Below, one piece after another: positions 25,184-36,458 of a DNA stretch of 64,000 nt. Both the position numbers and the translations under genes were made by a program. Where the stretch lies: NCBI GenBank assembly GCA_039962225.1, contig JAMPKV010000011.1:186001-250000 (forward strand), read 5' to 3'. Every line of letters starts with the position of its first letter. The stretch's first letter is position 1. This DNA is from Microcoleus sp. AS-A8. GTDB lineage: Bacteria > Cyanobacteriota > Cyanobacteriia > Cyanobacteriales > Coleofasciculaceae. The notes under the pieces were generated by a model. It was not told the DNA's origin and ran no database searches. It was given only the letters and a program-made list of their open reading frames with translations.

Positions 25184-26522
25184 TGTCCGGCAAATCACCC
25201 ATAATATAAATTGGGGTGCATTATTGGTGCTAGGGCAATGCCAAAACGAGTAACCATCGAACCACATCTAAGCGAGGATGAGTTAGAAACGGGCTACCGA
25301 AAAGCCAAGGAACCACTAAAGCGGACACACTATCAAATCATTTGGTTGTTAGCCAAAGGTAAAACAACACAAGAAGTGGTAGCAGCTACAGGCTATAGCC
25401 GTAGTTGGATCTACGAGTTGGTTTGGGGTTACAACCGTATTGGACCGGAGAGCTTGGGAGACCAACGTAGCTCAAACCAAGGAAGTAGCGAACCACTATT
25501 AGATGATGTGCAGCAAGCGTTGCTTTGGCAGGCACTACAAGAGCCACCTCTCTTAGGGAGGACAGTGGAATGGTAGAAAGGTGGCCAACTGGATGGCTGA
25601 GTTAACTGGTCGTCGTGTCAGTCGTCAACGGGGATGGGAATATCTCAAACAAATGCGTTTTCGTCTAAGAGTTCCCCGACCCGAACATACAGAGTCGAGC
25701 CAAGAAGAACAGGCCGAGTGGAAAAAAAAATTTTGCGACCAAGGTCGAACAAATACAAACAGCACACCCAGAATCCGACGTGGAAGTATGGGCAATGGAT
25801 GAACATCGAGTTGGCTTGAAACCAGTAGTTCGACGTATTTGGGTTGATGAGTGGACAGTACCAACGGCGAAAGTAAATTGGCGTTTTCAATGGTTGTGGC
25901 TCTATGGCTTTGTCCACCCAAAGACTGGACAAACATATTGGTGGATATTACCCTACGTCAACATTCAATTATTTAACAGAGTGCTAGCAGATTTCGCGCA
26001 ACACTTTGACATTGGCATGAGGAAGCAGGTGCTGTTGGTTATTGACCAAGCTGGCTGGCATACCAGCGACCAAGTAGAAATTCCCGAAGGCATACACTTG
26101 GAGTTTTTACCTTCTCATTCGCCAGAATTACAGCCCGCAGAGCGTCTATGGACACTAACCAATGAACCAATTGCTTTCTCGTAATTTTGACAGTCTTGAT
26201 CGGGTTGAGGAGGCGTTAATTAAACGTTGTTGCCAAATCATTGACCAGCCTGATTTTGTTCGTGGTTTAACCAATTTCTATTGGTGGTCTGAACTGGCGG
26301 CTTAATTATATGTTAATTCTCTAGAGATCATATCATCTGAGTGTAAGCGCAGCGATCGCCAACAGCTTAGCGACACCTACTTTTAGCAGTATCAACTGGA
26401 CATTGAGCTAACGCGATTACCAATTCCAAGCTGAGATGTGGTTCAATGGTTACTCGTTTTGACCTTGCCCTGGCCTCAATAATGCACCCCGATTTATATT
26501 ATGGGTGATTTACCGGACATCA
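25181..26522 (+). mobile_element. IS630-family insertion sequence, complete ends
   Basis: Length is 1342 bp. The 46-bp terminal inverted repeats are 25181-25226 and 26477-26522, beginning TGATGTCCGG, with two mismatches. A TA dinucleotide flanks each side (25179-25180 and 26523-26524), the target duplication typical of IS630/Tc1-mariner elements. The transposase gene inside is frame-shifted, so the copy is probably immobile unless helped in trans or read by frameshifting. Confidence 0.93.
25211..26305 (+). pseudogene. IS630 transposase, broken by three frame changes
   Basis: The N-terminal helix-turn-helix part reads from 25211 to about 25560 (KTTQEVVAATGYSRSWIYEL). The next part reads in a second frame (GRKVANWMAELTGRRVSRQR), the DDE catalytic core in a third from about 25730 (Asp in VWAMDEHRVG, Asp in LVIDQAGWHTS, Glu in LQPAERLW), and the last 45 residues in a fourth position after about 26175 (FDSLDRVEEALIKRCC). 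Each step equals a one-base insertion or two-base deletion. The second break is at a run of nine A then four T, where programmed slippage is conceivable, but the other two breaks make inactivation likely. Confidence 0.85.
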
Positions 26523-27154: not shown

Positions 27155-27391
27155 CACAGATTAACTCTAGTCATCAGGTCAATACTTTTAAGGGTAGGGG
27201 CGCTCTGATCTAGAACCGATAAGTTTCACTGAGATTAAATCACGGAGTGTTAGGTGTCGGAGTGTGTCAGCCAGTGGTATGGTATGACTGACTGATTAGT
27301 GTTTATCGTTTCACAACTTAACGACTACCTTCCTCTCTATCCCCTTTCAGGCTCTGCAGATACTCTGCCTCTGTCGAGTTCATCCGAAACT

Positions 27392-28138
27392 ATGGAAATC
27401 GAACAGCGACTAGGTCTATATCAAGTTTTTCTCAAGCTCTACGAGCATCATCGCACTCTGCTCGACGAAATTCTTCAGCTTGAAAAAACCAGTAGTAAAA
27501 GTCTTTCAAGTGTCCCAACCCGATGTCTCACAGGTGTGATTCAGGGTGAGCAAGTTTATGTGGTCACAAACCTGACAGATGGGAAAACTCAGACCTTACT
27601 ACAGTCTCAAGGAATCTGGACGATCGGACGCGATCGCCAACTTTCCATCCCGATTGCGGATCGGCGGTTATCTCGGCGACATGCTGTGATTCAGTACATT
27701 AAAAACGAGGGCTTCTACTTGGTTGACCTCGACAGCACCAATGGCTCTTTCATCAATGGTGAGCCGGTACATGGTCGTATGCCCCTCAAAGATGGCGATC
27801 GCGTTCGACTGAGTAACCTAGCCTTCTCCTTTTTTTTGTGTAACGATACGCAGACGTTAGACGAAGCTCCTCCAGATATCCTGGCCAAACTGAACGCTGC
27901 AACCGTGATACCCACTCCGGTAACTGCACAGCACTCAGCGGAACCGATGCCAGAACAAAACTTAAAGACTCCACTGATTGAGAACAAAGAGCAAACGTCA
28001 GAATTTTTGCAAGATGACTTGAACCTAGAAGATTTAGCCTCAGACGCTGCTAGACCCCAGCTAAGCCCTACTCAACAGTCAGAAATCTTAGACCGCTTTT
28101 TCAGTCGGCAGATTCAGAAGGTGACAGATCAAAACTAA
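27392..28138 (+). CDS. FHA-domain protein
   Basis: About 248 residues. The FHA phosphothreonine-binding domain spans about residues 65-140, with TIGRDRQLSIPIADRRLSRR (Gly-Arg, Ser-Arg-Arg-His core), LVDLDSTNGSFING and the closing LKDGDRVRLSNLAF. A helical N-terminal part and an acidic C-terminal tail flank it. The start is placed at ATG 27392 (MEIEQRLGLYQ); a GTG at 27299 would add 31 residues. It may read phosphorylation by Ser/Thr kinases such as those encoded 3 kb away; that link is inference. Confidence 0.85.
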   Translation: MEIEQRLGLYQVFLKLYEHHRTLLDEILQLEKTSSKSLSSVPTRCLTGVIQGEQVYVVTNLTDGKTQTLLQSQGIWTIGRDRQLSIPIADRRLSRRHAVIQYIKNEGFYLVDLDSTNGSFINGEPVHGRMPLKDGDRVRLSNLAFSFFLCNDTQTLDEAPPDILAKLNAATVIPTPVTAQHSAEPMPEQNLKTPLIENKEQTSEFLQDDLNLEDLASDAARPQLSPTQQSEILDRFFSRQIQKVTDQN

Positions 28139-31013: not shown

Positions 31014-32687
31014 TTAGGGTGATTTTTTATAGTGAGCGATCGCATCCAATGCCATCTGTTTGCTAGAGTCATCTTTGACAGTTTCGGCAACCTCAATGGC
31101 TTTGTCATACTGACCTTTCTCAGCTAACTTGATCGCGATCGTTGCTAATGCCCTCGCTTGTAAATCAGCATTGTTGATAGTATTAGCGACCTCAAGGGCC
31201 TTGTCGTACTGACCAGCGTTGGCATAACTGAAGGAGCTATAAGCCAACTCTACTGCATTCTCTAAATCAAAGCGTTTTGTCTCAATTGAATCTTTCTCTA
31301 AATCAGAGCGTTTTGTCTCATAGGCGTATCTAGAAAGATCTCGTGTGTTTGGGCCGCATTCTAGACCATTTCCTCGCACAATTGGAGCCTCGGCAAGACG
31401 TGGGATTTTAGACCAGTTGGATCGCCAATCCCAATTGCCTTCACAGGCGATCGCTCCTGTCAAAAGCTCACCTGTCTGTTGATTACCGACTGTTAGGAAA
31501 ACAGCCCCAACATAACTCTTGATATTTTTTGTCCGAGCAGTTGCATAATTAAATACAGCTAAGGGTGTGACACGAATTGAATATTCGTAATTTACTGTCT
31601 GATTTTTAATGCCAACACCCAACTCTTGTAAGGAATGGGTAAACTCTTGGTACTCTAAGAAGTAGGCTTGCTGGGCGCGGTTCATTGCGCCCATATTGTT
31701 TTTCGCTTCCGCTTGACGAGCCTTCCAAACCATGCCCAACGAAGAAGGAAGAGCAATGGCAATAAGAAAGGCAACAATATATTGGAAAACAGCTATATTG
31801 ATAGCACCCTCACGACCTTTCGGGGTGGTTTTTTGAGTGTCTGTATCAGCTGTTTCTAGCAGGGAACTAGGGGAACTATTGGCTTGCAAAGCCTCAAGCG
31901 CTTCATGTGCATTGGAGAAGCGCAGTTCTGGAGCTGGATCGATTAGCGTCTCTAGCCAGTGAGCGAAACTGGGAGACAAGCTGACTTTATCTCGAAATTG
32001 CAAGCGCATCTCACGCTGTGGCAAATCTACAGGTGCAGTACCTGTTAACAAATGAATCAGAGTGGCTCCCAGTGCGTAGAGATCGCTCGCTGGCACGGCA
32101 CGTCCCCACAACTGTTCTGGTGGAGCATAGCCTCCCGTGCCAACTACAGTGAAGGTGGCACCCTCTGCCTTGGCTCTCTCTTGCACTGCACCGAAATCTA
32201 CGAGATAGGCTTGGCGATATTTTTGCCAAATAATGTTGCTAGGTTTGATGTCGCGATGCAGCACTGGCGGACTCAGCTCATGCAGATAAATTAGTATGTT
32301 CAGCAAGTGGATAGCTATCTGTTTTGCCTCTGCTTCTGTAAAGCGTTTGCCTTTCTTCAATAGCTGCTGCAAGGTGTACCCTGGAATGTAGTCTTGCACT
32401 AAGCAAAACCAAGGTAAATTACCGCTATTAGACGGCTCAGTGGAAAAATAATCCCGATATTTAGAAATGCGGGGATGATTGAGATGTTTCAGAACTTGAG
32501 CTTCCCGTTCAAATAATTTGAGGTCGTCCCAGTGGATTTGGGGACTAAAGGGCAGTAGCTTAACAATTACCTGCTCTCTGGATTGGGTTGCTAAATCAAC
32601 ACCCAACCAAGTTTGACGACCAGCATTGTTCCCTAACTGTTGCTTGAGTTGATAACGTTCGTGTAAAATCTGTTCTGATTGCAGCAT
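31014..32687 (-). CDS. Ser/Thr protein kinase fused to a type IV pilin-like domain (type A, copy 1)
   Basis: 557 residues. The kinase domain is residues 10-265: Lys43 in IVKLLPF, catalytic HRD at 144-146, Asp164 of DFG, and APPEQ. A membrane helix at about 296-318 runs straight into ALPSSLGMVWKARQAEAKNN and GAMNRAQQAYFLE, which is the alpha-1 helix sequence of cyanobacterial pilin-like G/H proteins; Cys415 and Cys444 match the usual pilin disulfide pair. The prepilin peptidase site (GFTLIE-like) is absent. Two TPR-like repeats (GQYDKALEVA, GQYDKAIEVA) end the chain. The inferred topology is cytoplasmic kinase with an outside pilin-like sensor. Confidence 0.88.
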   Translation of the reverse strand: MLQSEQILHERYQLKQQLGNNAGRQTWLGVDLATQSREQVIVKLLPFSPQIHWDDLKLFEREAQVLKHLNHPRISKYRDYFSTEPSNSGNLPWFCLVQDYIPGYTLQQLLKKGKRFTEAEAKQIAIHLLNILIYLHELSPPVLHRDIKPSNIIWQKYRQAYLVDFGAVQERAKAEGATFTVVGTGGYAPPEQLWGRAVPASDLYALGATLIHLLTGTAPVDLPQREMRLQFRDKVSLSPSFAHWLETLIDPAPELRFSNAHEALEALQANSSPSSLLETADTDTQKTTPKGREGAINIAVFQYIVAFLIAIALPSSLGMVWKARQAEAKNNMGAMNRAQQAYFLEYQEFTHSLQELGVGIKNQTVNYEYSIRVTPLAVFNYATARTKNIKSYVGAVFLTVGNQQTGELLTGAIACEGNWDWRSNWSKIPRLAEAPIVRGNGLECGPNTRDLSRYAYETKRSDLEKDSIETKRFDLENAVELAYSSFSYANAGQYDKALEVANTINNADLQARALATIAIKLAEKGQYDKAIEVAETVKDDSSKQMALDAIAHYKKSP

Positions 32688-32751
32688 CAGGTGTTGCCTT
32701 TTGTTACTTGGTAATGACTAATAAAAAATGGTAGAAAATTAGCATTGCAAT

Positions 32752-34335
32752 TTATTGTTTTAGCCAGGTTTTAATCTCTTCAACTAACCACTCAATCTCA
32801 GGTTTAATTAGGTTTTGATTAAACACATATCTTTGCTGTGTCGTCTGGATAAATATCCCTTCATGGGGAATTGATCTAATGATTTTAATTTCTGATGTGT
32901 GACCTAGCTGGCGGCGATTGCTCCGAAATACAAACAGTTGCCTCCCTATGCCAAAACCCTTTTTGTCAAAGTAGAGGTAGTTATGTCCGAAGCAAGCGAT
33001 AAATCCTTCTAGTAAGTTGAATAATACACCAGATTTTAGCCAGGAAATAAACACCAATAAAATTGAAACAAGTAGGATAGCTAAGGTGAAATCAGAAGAA
33101 AAATAAATAAACAATGCGGCAAATACTAAACTAGGCAATCCTAGAAGTATTCCAGTGGCTATAGTTAATATCAATTTACCAAAACAATTGTTCGCTGCTT
33201 CCTTGATTTTTGCGACAACGCCAAACTTGAGCCATAACCAAATCAGCAAACCTATCAATAAACAAAAGGTAATAGGTACAACGTTTGCAAGACGTGAATT
33301 GATTGAAGAAACATGGAAGAGCAACATTGATAATCCAATAATTGGTAATGTTGTGATTAATGACCAGCCTAATGCATGAACCAATTTAGTGCAAAAATCA
33401 ACAAAATTCTGCAAAACAGTTTTTCCTAGATGTATCTTAAGGCTCAACTGTCTCGGAGATTTCTTCAGTCGAATACGGCTACCAACAGTTTGACGAATTT
33501 TTGGCTCTGAATAGGTAAGAAAACGTCCCGTTTGAAGAGCTTCTAGTGCTTGATTGGCTGAACTAAACCGCCGCTCTAAATCAGGTTCTGTAAGGCATTG
33601 AATCCAGTTGAGAAAACTAGGCTGGAGACTGATGCGATCGCAAAATTGTATGCGTAACTTACTCTGGGGTAAATCGGCGGGGGAAGTGCCAGTTAATAAA
33701 TGAATTAAGGTTGCTCCTAGTGCATACAAATCGGATGCCGGAACTGCCTTTCCATAAAACTGTTCCAAGGGGGCATAACCAGCCGTACCAACTATAGTGA
33801 ATGTTGCTCCCTCAACCGCAAATGGGTCAGCTACCGCACCAAAATCTACCAGATAGACTTGCTCATCCTCTCCCCAAATTAGGTTGCTGGGTTTGATATC
33901 GCGATGCAGTACGGGGGGATTTAACCCATGTAAGTAAGTTAGAATTTCGAGTACTTGGATAGCAAGCGATCGCACCTGCTCTTGTGTAAAGTGCTGACCC
34001 TGATCAAGGAGTTGTTGGAGAGACTTGCCCGGAATATAGTCTTGCACCAAAGCAAACCAGCATAACCCCTTACCAATATCCCCATCTAGGGAAAAATAGT
34101 CGCGATACTTGGGCAGGCGGGGATGGTTGAGACTCTTGAGAACTTGAGCCTCTCGCTCAAACAGTTTGAACTCCTCCCACTGCATCTGAGGACTGAACGC
34201 CAGCAGCTTAACGATGACAGGTTTGGCTGGAGATGCCTTGATATCTGTGGCTAGCCAAGTTTGACGACCAGCATTATTTCCCAACTGTTGAGAGAGTTGA
34301 TAACGCTCCCCTACAACTTGCTCTGTTTGCAGCAT
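32752..34335 (-). CDS. Ser/Thr protein kinase with multi-pass membrane tail (type B, copy 1)
   Basis: 527 residues. The kinase domain is residues 10-265 with Lys43, HRD at 144-146 and DFG at 164-166. After a linker come four hydrophobic segments between about 330 and 460, then a beta-rich end (FVFRSNRRQLGHTSEIKIIR, then GIFIQTTQQRYVFNQ) that looks like a small PH-like domain ending in a WLVEEIKTWLKQ helix. The type A copy follows 64 bases downstream, so the two are likely cotranscribed. Substrates are unknown. Confidence 0.87.
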   Translation of the reverse strand: MLQTEQVVGERYQLSQQLGNNAGRQTWLATDIKASPAKPVIVKLLAFSPQMQWEEFKLFEREAQVLKSLNHPRLPKYRDYFSLDGDIGKGLCWFALVQDYIPGKSLQQLLDQGQHFTQEQVRSLAIQVLEILTYLHGLNPPVLHRDIKPSNLIWGEDEQVYLVDFGAVADPFAVEGATFTIVGTAGYAPLEQFYGKAVPASDLYALGATLIHLLTGTSPADLPQSKLRIQFCDRISLQPSFLNWIQCLTEPDLERRFSSANQALEALQTGRFLTYSEPKIRQTVGSRIRLKKSPRQLSLKIHLGKTVLQNFVDFCTKLVHALGWSLITTLPIIGLSMLLFHVSSINSRLANVVPITFCLLIGLLIWLWLKFGVVAKIKEAANNCFGKLILTIATGILLGLPSLVFAALFIYFSSDFTLAILLVSILLVFISWLKSGVLFNLLEGFIACFGHNYLYFDKKGFGIGRQLFVFRSNRRQLGHTSEIKIIRSIPHEGIFIQTTQQRYVFNQNLIKPEIEWLVEEIKTWLKQ

Positions 34336-34661
34336 TGTGTTATATCGACTGGAGTGATAACTATCTATTCGTACAGGCGGCTACCTGAGTTCTCCACGGA
34401 TTTGTGAGAGAACTCATCCACTTATGTACTTATGTACTTATCTCCAGAGCTTTGCAACTTATGCAAGAAATAGAGTTTTAGAGCAGAGTCTCTTCAAATA
34501 AGGTTGACCAATGGTTTGTCTTTTGAGCTGCCTATAGACCTTAAAGTGATTTCTCACAGGGAACGCACGCGCCTCCAGTACCCTTGCTTTGTCAGAGTAA
34601 TTTTTCAGAGTTTGGACAACCTTTAAAATGGGCTTGTCGCGACTGATAACAACTAAACTCG
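34336..34661. other. Gap between two kinase units
   Basis: This 326-base stretch separates the two B-A kinase units. It holds a short tandem word (TACTTATG twice near 34420-34442) and, at 34590-34640, text resembling the repeat-coding end of the upstream kinase, perhaps a decayed repeat. No gene is seen. Confidence 0.4.
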
Positions 34662-36458
34662 TTAGCGATCGCCTTCAGTGTTTTCAGCCCTGTGAGACAG
34701 AATCCCCACCGCTGTGGATTTTTTTCCAGCTACGGCATACTGCTGAGAAATATCTGCCCAAAGCATGGCTTTAGTATCAGCATCTTGGAGGGTGTTGGCA
34801 ACCTCAAGAGCTTGGGACAGAATTTCCATCGCTTGGGATGGTTGCCCTGCGACGGCATACTTTTGGGCAATGTCTGTTAACACCCAAGCTTTGATGTCAT
34901 CATCTGGGATGGTTTTGGCGATCTCAAGGGCTTGGGAGAGGCTGGGACTGGCTTGCACCTGTTGATTCGTGTTGGGAGAGCGAGTAATTGCCTTTAACGC
35001 CTTCTCTTTGAGAGGGCTGGAATCGATAGCTTCGGCGACTACAAGGGCTTGGTTATACTGACCCGTGACAGCATAATTAACAGAGTTATAGGCCAAAGCC
35101 GAATCCTTGCTTAAAATAATCCGTCCTGTCTCATTGTCTGGGGTGCGATTGAGTAATTGGGTATTGGAGCCACACTCTAGGACGTTACCATGCACAATTG
35201 GCTCAGTGACGTCACTCACTTCATCCAGAAGAATAGGCTCACAAGCGAGCGCGATCGTTACAAGCTCATCCGTCCCATTGTTAGCCGATTCAAGGAAGAC
35301 ACCCCCCACATAGCTTGTAATCGCCTTCTGGCGGGACGTTGCATAATTAAATACGGCTAACGGTGTGACACGAGTGGAATATTCGTAGTTTTCTGTCGGA
35401 TTTTTAATGCCAATCGCGAGGGATTGAACGGAATCGGCAAACTGCTGATGCTTTAAGAAGTACGATTGCTGGGCACGGTTGATGATTCTCAGGCCGCTTT
35501 TTCCTTGACATGACTTGCAGCCCTCTCGGTAAACCACAAAAGTAGGTACAGCAACCGCAAAAACAACGATCGCTGCATATTGAAGTAACGCTAAGCCCCC
35601 GATCCGACCATAGCGTGCTTTCTGGACAGTTCCTTCACTCCTACGACTGGTGGCTTGCAATGCCATGAGGGCTTGACGTGCCTGGGAAAAGCGCCGTTCG
35701 GGAGCGGGGTCTGTGAGTTTCTCAATCCAGTGAGCGAAACTAGGAGTAAGGGTGACTTTATCCTGAAATTGCAGACGCATCCGCTGCTGGGGTAAGTTTG
35801 CTGGAGATGTGCCTGTTAACAAATGAATCAGAGTTGCTCCCAAAGCATACAAGTCACTGGCACTCACGGCACGTCCCCACAGTTGTTCGGGTGGAGCATA
35901 ACCACCAGTTCCTACTACCGTGAAAGTAACTCCCTCTGCCTTCGCTTTTTCTTGCACTGCCCCAAAATCCACCAAGTAAACTTGCCCATCCTCTGCCCAA
36001 ATAATATTGCTGGGCTTGATGTCGCGATGGAGAACTGGCGGACTTAATTCATGTAAATAAATCAAGATATTGAGCAACTGAGTCGCTATCTCTTTGGCCT
36101 CAGCTTCACTAAAGCGCTTGCGACTTTTGAAGAGCTGTTGTAAGGATAAGCCTTTGATATAATCCTGCACTAATCCAAACCAAGGCAAACCTCCACCATC
36201 CTCCTTTTCTACCGAAAAATAATCGCGATACTTGGGAATTCGGGGATGGTTAAGATGTTTCAGGACTTGCGCCTCTCGCTCAAATAACTTCAGGTCATCC
36301 CATTGAGTCTGAGGGCTAAAAGGCAACAGTTTAACAATGACTGGCTGTTTGGGTTCTGCTGCTAAATCAAAAGCCAGCCAAGTTTGACGACTGGGATTGT
36401 TGCTCAATTGTTGAGAGAGTTGATAACGTCCCTGTAAAATCTGTTCGGCTTGCAGCAT
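34662..36458 (-). CDS. Ser/Thr protein kinase fused to a type IV pilin-like domain (type A, copy 2)
   Basis: About 598 residues, starting at ATG 36458 (MLQAEQILQG); the open frame reaches 36491, but the other copies start at MLQ. The kinase core is intact (Lys43, HRD, DFG), but the nucleotide loop reads LSNNPSRQTW, with serines where copy 1 has glycines, so ATP binding may differ. The membrane helix (ALLQYAAIVVFAVAVPTFVV), the pilin-like part (INRAQQSYFLKHQQF, VTPLAVFNYATSRQ) and two cysteines (ACEP, LECG) follow. The C-terminus holds longer TPR-like repeats (AVAGQPSQAMEILSQALEVA). Confidence 0.87.
   Translation of the reverse strand: MLQAEQILQGRYQLSQQLSNNPSRQTWLAFDLAAEPKQPVIVKLLPFSPQTQWDDLKLFEREAQVLKHLNHPRIPKYRDYFSVEKEDGGGLPWFGLVQDYIKGLSLQQLFKSRKRFSEAEAKEIATQLLNILIYLHELSPPVLHRDIKPSNIIWAEDGQVYLVDFGAVQEKAKAEGVTFTVVGTGGYAPPEQLWGRAVSASDLYALGATLIHLLTGTSPANLPQQRMRLQFQDKVTLTPSFAHWIEKLTDPAPERRFSQARQALMALQATSRRSEGTVQKARYGRIGGLALLQYAAIVVFAVAVPTFVVYREGCKSCQGKSGLRIINRAQQSYFLKHQQFADSVQSLAIGIKNPTENYEYSTRVTPLAVFNYATSRQKAITSYVGGVFLESANNGTDELVTIALACEPILLDEVSDVTEPIVHGNVLECGSNTQLLNRTPDNETGRIILSKDSALAYNSVNYAVTGQYNQALVVAEAIDSSPLKEKALKAITRSPNTNQQVQASPSLSQALEIAKTIPDDDIKAWVLTDIAQKYAVAGQPSQAMEILSQALEVANTLQDADTKAMLWADISQQYAVAGKKSTAVGILSHRAENTEGDR

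Follow-up and report, generated by a model that had tools for sequence, protein, structure and literature searches.

Gene run and domain layout

The analyzed DNA, referred to below as the window, comprises 64,000 nucleotides of contig JAMPKV010000011.1 of the cyanobacterium Microcoleus sp. AS-A8 (assembly GCA_039962225.1, forward-strand positions 186,001 to 250,000) and carries on its minus strand a run of kinase genes, two of which encode Ser/Thr kinases with a pilin-like tail. Both reading frames, P0001 (31014..32687; 557 amino acids, aa) and P0002 (34662..36458; 598 aa), are real, and an open TTG is also present 33 bases further upstream of the P0002 start. P0001 consists of a kinase domain with HRDxKxxN and DFG motifs (Pfam aa 34–260, 31908..32588; Pkinase, 2.9e-32), a single membrane helix (aa 295–313, 31749..31805; hydropathy 2.36, no other segment above 1.6), a Pilin_GH body (Pfam aa 325–418, 31434..31715), and TPR-like helices (aa 469–554, 31026..31283). 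The same order holds for P0002, with a kinase domain (Pfam aa 37–258, 35685..36350; Pkinase, 1.3e-32), a single membrane helix (aa 286–304, 35547..35603; hydropathy 2.28), a Pilin_GH body (Pfam aa 318–408, 35235..35507; 1.3e-21), and TPR-like repeats (TPR_12, aa 503–555, 34794..34952; 2.8e-5, below the Pfam cut-off). The four-part arrangement that the original prediction had assigned to both proteins is confirmed by Pfam and hydropathy. Directly upstream of each lies a sister kinase with membrane segments, P0003 before P0001 (32752..34335, minus strand; Pkinase, 1.2e-27; four hydrophobic segments) and P0004 before P0002 (36655..38103, minus strand; Pkinase, 4.6e-27; two segments), neither of which has a Pilin_GH match in the Pfam profile search. 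In reading order, P0004–P0002–P0003–P0001, the run is thus a membrane-segment kinase followed by a pilin-tailed kinase, twice over.

The architecture recurs in other genomes. A profile combining the kinase C-lobe and the pilin was searched in named genomes (443 stretches, 409 relatives), and 80 matches at 79 loci were kept. Kinase and pilin lie within one frame at 21 of these loci (L063–L082 and L084), with record titles including Coleofasciculus, Trichocoleus, Symploca, Oscillatoria, Microseira, Symplocastrum, Microcoleus, Phormidium, Pantanalinema, and others. In a survey of 388 genomes of the order (the window's included), a single frame was required to span no fewer than 266 of the 280 positions of the profile; approximately six candidates per genome were scored and the best matches listed, so that the resulting at least 26 genomes and at least 31 places are lower bounds. 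The two surveys overlap, and the counts are therefore not additive. This recurrence, which includes Microseira wollei NIES-4236 and Trichocoleus sp. FACHB-40, whose titles do not mark them as metagenome-assembled genomes, rules out an assembly or frame artefact. The gene pairing recurs as well: in 18 of the 19 assessable fusion loci (out of 21) the next matching frame upstream encodes a kinase, at a distance of 281 bases or less in 17 of them. Multiple membrane helices are not a constant feature of the sister kinases: two or three segments were found in 12 and one segment in 6 of these 18 kinases. Open-access literature searches brought up no publication describing a fusion of a kinase with Pilin_GH, although automatic InterPro or Pfam listings may exist; in the main text of two kinase surveys (PMC2176072 and PMC1262709) the word "pilin" occurs 0 times.

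Conservation and selection

In an alignment of 23 fusions, each row matches Pilin_GH (E ≤ 0.001), and exactly one hydrophobic segment separates the kinase from the pilin in all 23 by hydropathy. The charges flanking this helix do not settle its orientation in all rows. The HRDxKxxN and DFG motifs of the kinase and the cysteines of the pilin body are invariant, and the kinase lysine (K43) is kept in at least 90% of the rows. The glycine loop departs from the GxGxxG pattern, its consensus in the fusions being LGQNAGRQTW.

Selection was assessed by comparison with counterparts in a genome of the same genus (G292), using the ratio of nonsynonymous to synonymous substitution rates (dN/dS). For P0002 the ratio is 0.12 in the kinase (aa 1–275), 0.33 in the linker and helix, 0.29 in the pilin (aa 316–440), and 0.31 in the TPR part (aa 441–598); purifying selection acts on all parts of the protein. 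The counterpart of P0001 is a 268-aa frame with the pilin and TPR-like parts only, the kinase being missing, and it may be a decaying or separated tail. This kinase-less frame (L043:2620-3423, minus strand) stands directly behind the intact P0002 counterpart. The comparison of P0001 accordingly covers the helix (1.13), the pilin (0.75), and the TPR part (0.55), its kinase part having had no partner within the genus.

The kinase-less counterpart and the unusual glycine loop would fit a membrane pseudokinase or a decaying duplicate with no signalling role. We consider this highly improbable, given catalytic motifs invariant across 23 rows, a dN/dS of 0.12 in the P0002 kinase, and a fusion present in at least 26 of the 388 genomes. 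Another explanation is that the pilin body and TPRs merely anchor or scaffold the kinase in the envelope and sense no ligand. TPRs are common scaffolds, and the hydrophobic helix is retained in the pilin-less kinases of the group; for anchoring, however, the helix alone would suffice and the body would be free to drift, yet the P0002 pilin has a dN/dS of 0.29, the body cysteines are invariant, and the body is joined to different effectors (see below). An anchor without a sensing function is thus unlikely.

Nature and origin of the pilin body

The bodies of P0001 and P0002 score 101.9 and 77.6 bits against Pilin_GH (PF16734; cut-off 28.9), and the structure prediction gives a pilin-type alpha/beta fold with a long N-terminal helix, an antiparallel sheet, and a late cysteine pair. 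Profile score and predicted fold thus both place the region, as first proposed, with the pilins and not with an unrelated family. Many Pilin_GH members, among the matches listed, lie in frames of approximately 160–230 aa, whereas in P0001 and P0002 the body follows the kinase domain and the membrane helix and has no prepilin motif. Loss of the prepilin peptidase site, another element of the original prediction, extends to the whole group, the motif (F1, E5) being missing in 23/23 fusions. By contrast, GFTLIE or GFSWVD is present in 13 of 47 frames matching Pilin_GH, a set of 47 that includes 10 kinase fusions; four more pattern matches (ALTIFE or AFTIFE) were set aside, as their frames have no hydrophobic segment beside the pilin part.

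The anchor itself seems to derive in part from the kinase and in part from the pilin. The proposal that a pilin helix was reused as a fixed anchor fits the second half of the P0001 helix, which looks pilin-like by eye. A contribution of the kinase is suggested by the motif Y-x-R-[LI], which precedes the helix both in 13 of the 23 fusions and in 3 of 6 kinases that lack a pilin and belong to the group or lie next to it; these 3 end soon after the helix. GCGC occurs in 2 of the 23 fusions, and several free anchored proteins carry it too.

The unrooted tree of pilin bodies (64 rows, 135 columns) contains one branch (99/96) with 22 of the 23 fusions and 12 of the 13 membrane-anchored pilin-like proteins that have no prepilin motif, and this branch stands apart from canonical prepilins and most secreted forms. 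The exceptions are the fusion L079, which groups with prepilins, and the anchored L001, which groups with the secreted forms; the prepilins L005, L006, and L012 separate from the other ten. Two of the 13 anchored rows (labeled TManchor), the kinase-less G292 tail (L010) and a protein cut by a contig end (L013), are among the 12 in the branch and may be remnants of fusions. The rows L009, L028, and L029, labeled as second-type fusions, are copies of window or G292 fusions, whereas L060, the sole true second-type fusion in this tree, groups with secreted forms. Direct reuse of an assembling pilin is disfavoured by the tree, and the fusion was probably not made in this way. The relation to pilins, as originally suggested, holds for the family and the fold, but the closest grouping is with motif-less anchored proteins and not with canonical prepilins. 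Fusions and free forms are intermingled inside the branch, and its direction (joining or splitting) is not readable from the tree.

The kinase tree, built by a quick method, comprises 86 rows, including the kinases of L063–L088 that match over 200 aa (the fusion L082 was dropped as too short) and 18 chosen loci of L089–L141. The fusions are clustered in it, with 8 label changes against a shuffled mean of about 19.7, and at least 5 of the 8 are forced by starred branches. Pilin-less members nest singly among the fusions, and the fusions L074 and L077 lie inside the branch of the other kinases. A single gain of the pilin body without loss is unsupported, as the tree needs 8 changes, a count that does not separate gain from loss.

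Probable receptor role and pilin bodies on other effectors

We favor, with a probability of roughly 0.7, the reading of P0001 and P0002 as Ser/Thr receptor kinases that cross the membrane once and have a pilin fold as their outer domain, and a receptor role of the pilin-tailed kinases is likely. The kinase would stay in the cytoplasm, and one helix would span the inner membrane and run on into the first pilin helix, placing the pilin-fold body and the TPR-like helices on the outer side, either in the periplasm or on the cell surface; the outside location of a sensor domain, as proposed originally, is in this sense probable. The body was probably taken from, or shares a common origin with, membrane-anchored pilin-like proteins without the prepilin peptidase motif. 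Because this motif is absent, the body should stay put and not enter a pilus. On binding a partner through the pilin body, the TPR tail, or both, the receptor would alter its pairing and the kinase would be switched, possibly in concert with the sister kinase whose gene lies directly upstream.

The proposed layout of cytosolic kinase, single membrane helix, and outer domain is that of the Hanks-type PASTA receptor kinases PknB and Stk1, and PknB_PASTA is the best NCBIfam model for P0001, although far under its cut-off (109.3 of 450 bits). In contrast to these kinases, the outer part of P0001 and P0002 is a pilin fold with TPR-like helices, PASTA was not found, and the glycine loop is unusual. 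PilS of Pseudomonas, a histidine kinase, answers to a separate pilin, whereas in P0001 and P0002 kinase and pilin fold form one protein. Signalling by PilS, which is likewise a membrane kinase, is pilin-dependent, with PilS–PilR output following the PilA level (PMC6058289). SpkA and other Ser/Thr kinases of Synechocystis, likewise cyanobacterial, are needed for motility and, compared by description only, are given no pilin domain in the accessible part of their source (PMC7076178).

Sensing of pili or surfaces by the pilin-tailed kinases is an attractive hypothesis because the genome has canonical prepilins (L005, GFSWVD; L006, GFTLIE) and a prepilin peptidase N-domain (3.6e-36), and because the Pseudomonas precedent exists. 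A stricter version, in which the body is a dedicated PilS/PilA-like sensor that binds pilins, pseudopilins, or the inner-membrane pilus base and reports the state of the pilus, could also draw on the pilin-like second half of the P0001 helix. It appears rather doubtful, since the F1/E5 motif is missing in all 23 fusions, the helix differs among them, and no pilus gene was found in the 10 neighboring frames scanned at 27.3–50.3 kb of the window, where other frames were left unscanned.

As a new observation, Pilin_GH bodies also occur on effectors of other kinds, namely two additional types of kinase, a caspase-like domain, and Uma2; these examples come from long frames among the Pilin_GH matches listed and carry no frequency. 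A second kinase type, whose loop resembles GxGGxG by eye, was found in G405, G328, G474, and G308 (L152:3147-4925, minus strand; L154:660-2174, minus strand; L156:284-1768, plus strand; L060 of G308). A third type occurs in G546 and G500 (L164:1537-3951, plus strand, and L165; Pkinase, 7.1e-13 and 4.5e-12). Kinase-like remnants occur with the pilin in G520 (L163, below the Pfam cut-off) and G172 (L155, by a custom profile only). A single frame in G425 (L157:368-2005, minus strand) joins a caspase domain (Peptidase_C14, 7.8e-22) to Pilin_GH (4e-31) and also has a hydrophobic segment, a single example that is possibly a pilin-fold receptor for a cell-death-type protease. Uma2, a putative restriction endonuclease domain, is joined to Pilin_GH in G405 and G349 (L152:1298-2677, minus strand, and L153:613-1968, plus strand; 7e-28 and 4.6e-27), and neither protein has a segment above the hydropathy cut-off. 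DUF4352 accompanies the pilin in L160. The order in L170 (G380) is kinase, helix, pilin, TPRs, and a second pilin, and the pilin and TPRs therefore lie on the same side. That the pilin body recurs with different effectors suggests that it acts as an independent sensor module. More tentatively, cyanobacteria may have turned the body into a general receptor module by repeatedly joining non-processed pilin-like membrane proteins to effectors of the cytosol, among them three kinase types, a caspase-like domain, and perhaps Uma2. The outcome would be a class of transmembrane receptors whose pilin-fold ectodomains read pilus subunits, neighbors, or surfaces and whose output enters phosphorylation and perhaps cell-death pathways; we regard this as possible but less likely than not.

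Apparently secreted proteins place a Pilin_GH body after pentapeptide repeats (L158 by Pfam; L159 and L056 by eye). Tandem bodies were observed at G129:C6:2057115-2058542 (four matches) and at L168:1883-3301 (plus strand; three passing, with a prepilin-like stretch at the start). Elsewhere in the window, an FHA-domain protein (27299-28138, plus strand; 4.6e-20), a possible phosphopeptide reader, is encoded near the kinase run, with recA and an exonuclease VII gene lying in between, and a short frame at 25780-26184 (plus strand) resembles, by eye, a transposase piece.

For many bacterial Ser/Thr kinases, neither the outer domain nor the signal is understood. Use of a pilus subunit as a fixed receptor ectodomain would, if true, tie phosphorylation signalling to the envelope, and the pilin-tailed kinases offer a concrete set of proteins for probing surface and pilus sensing in filamentous cyanobacteria.
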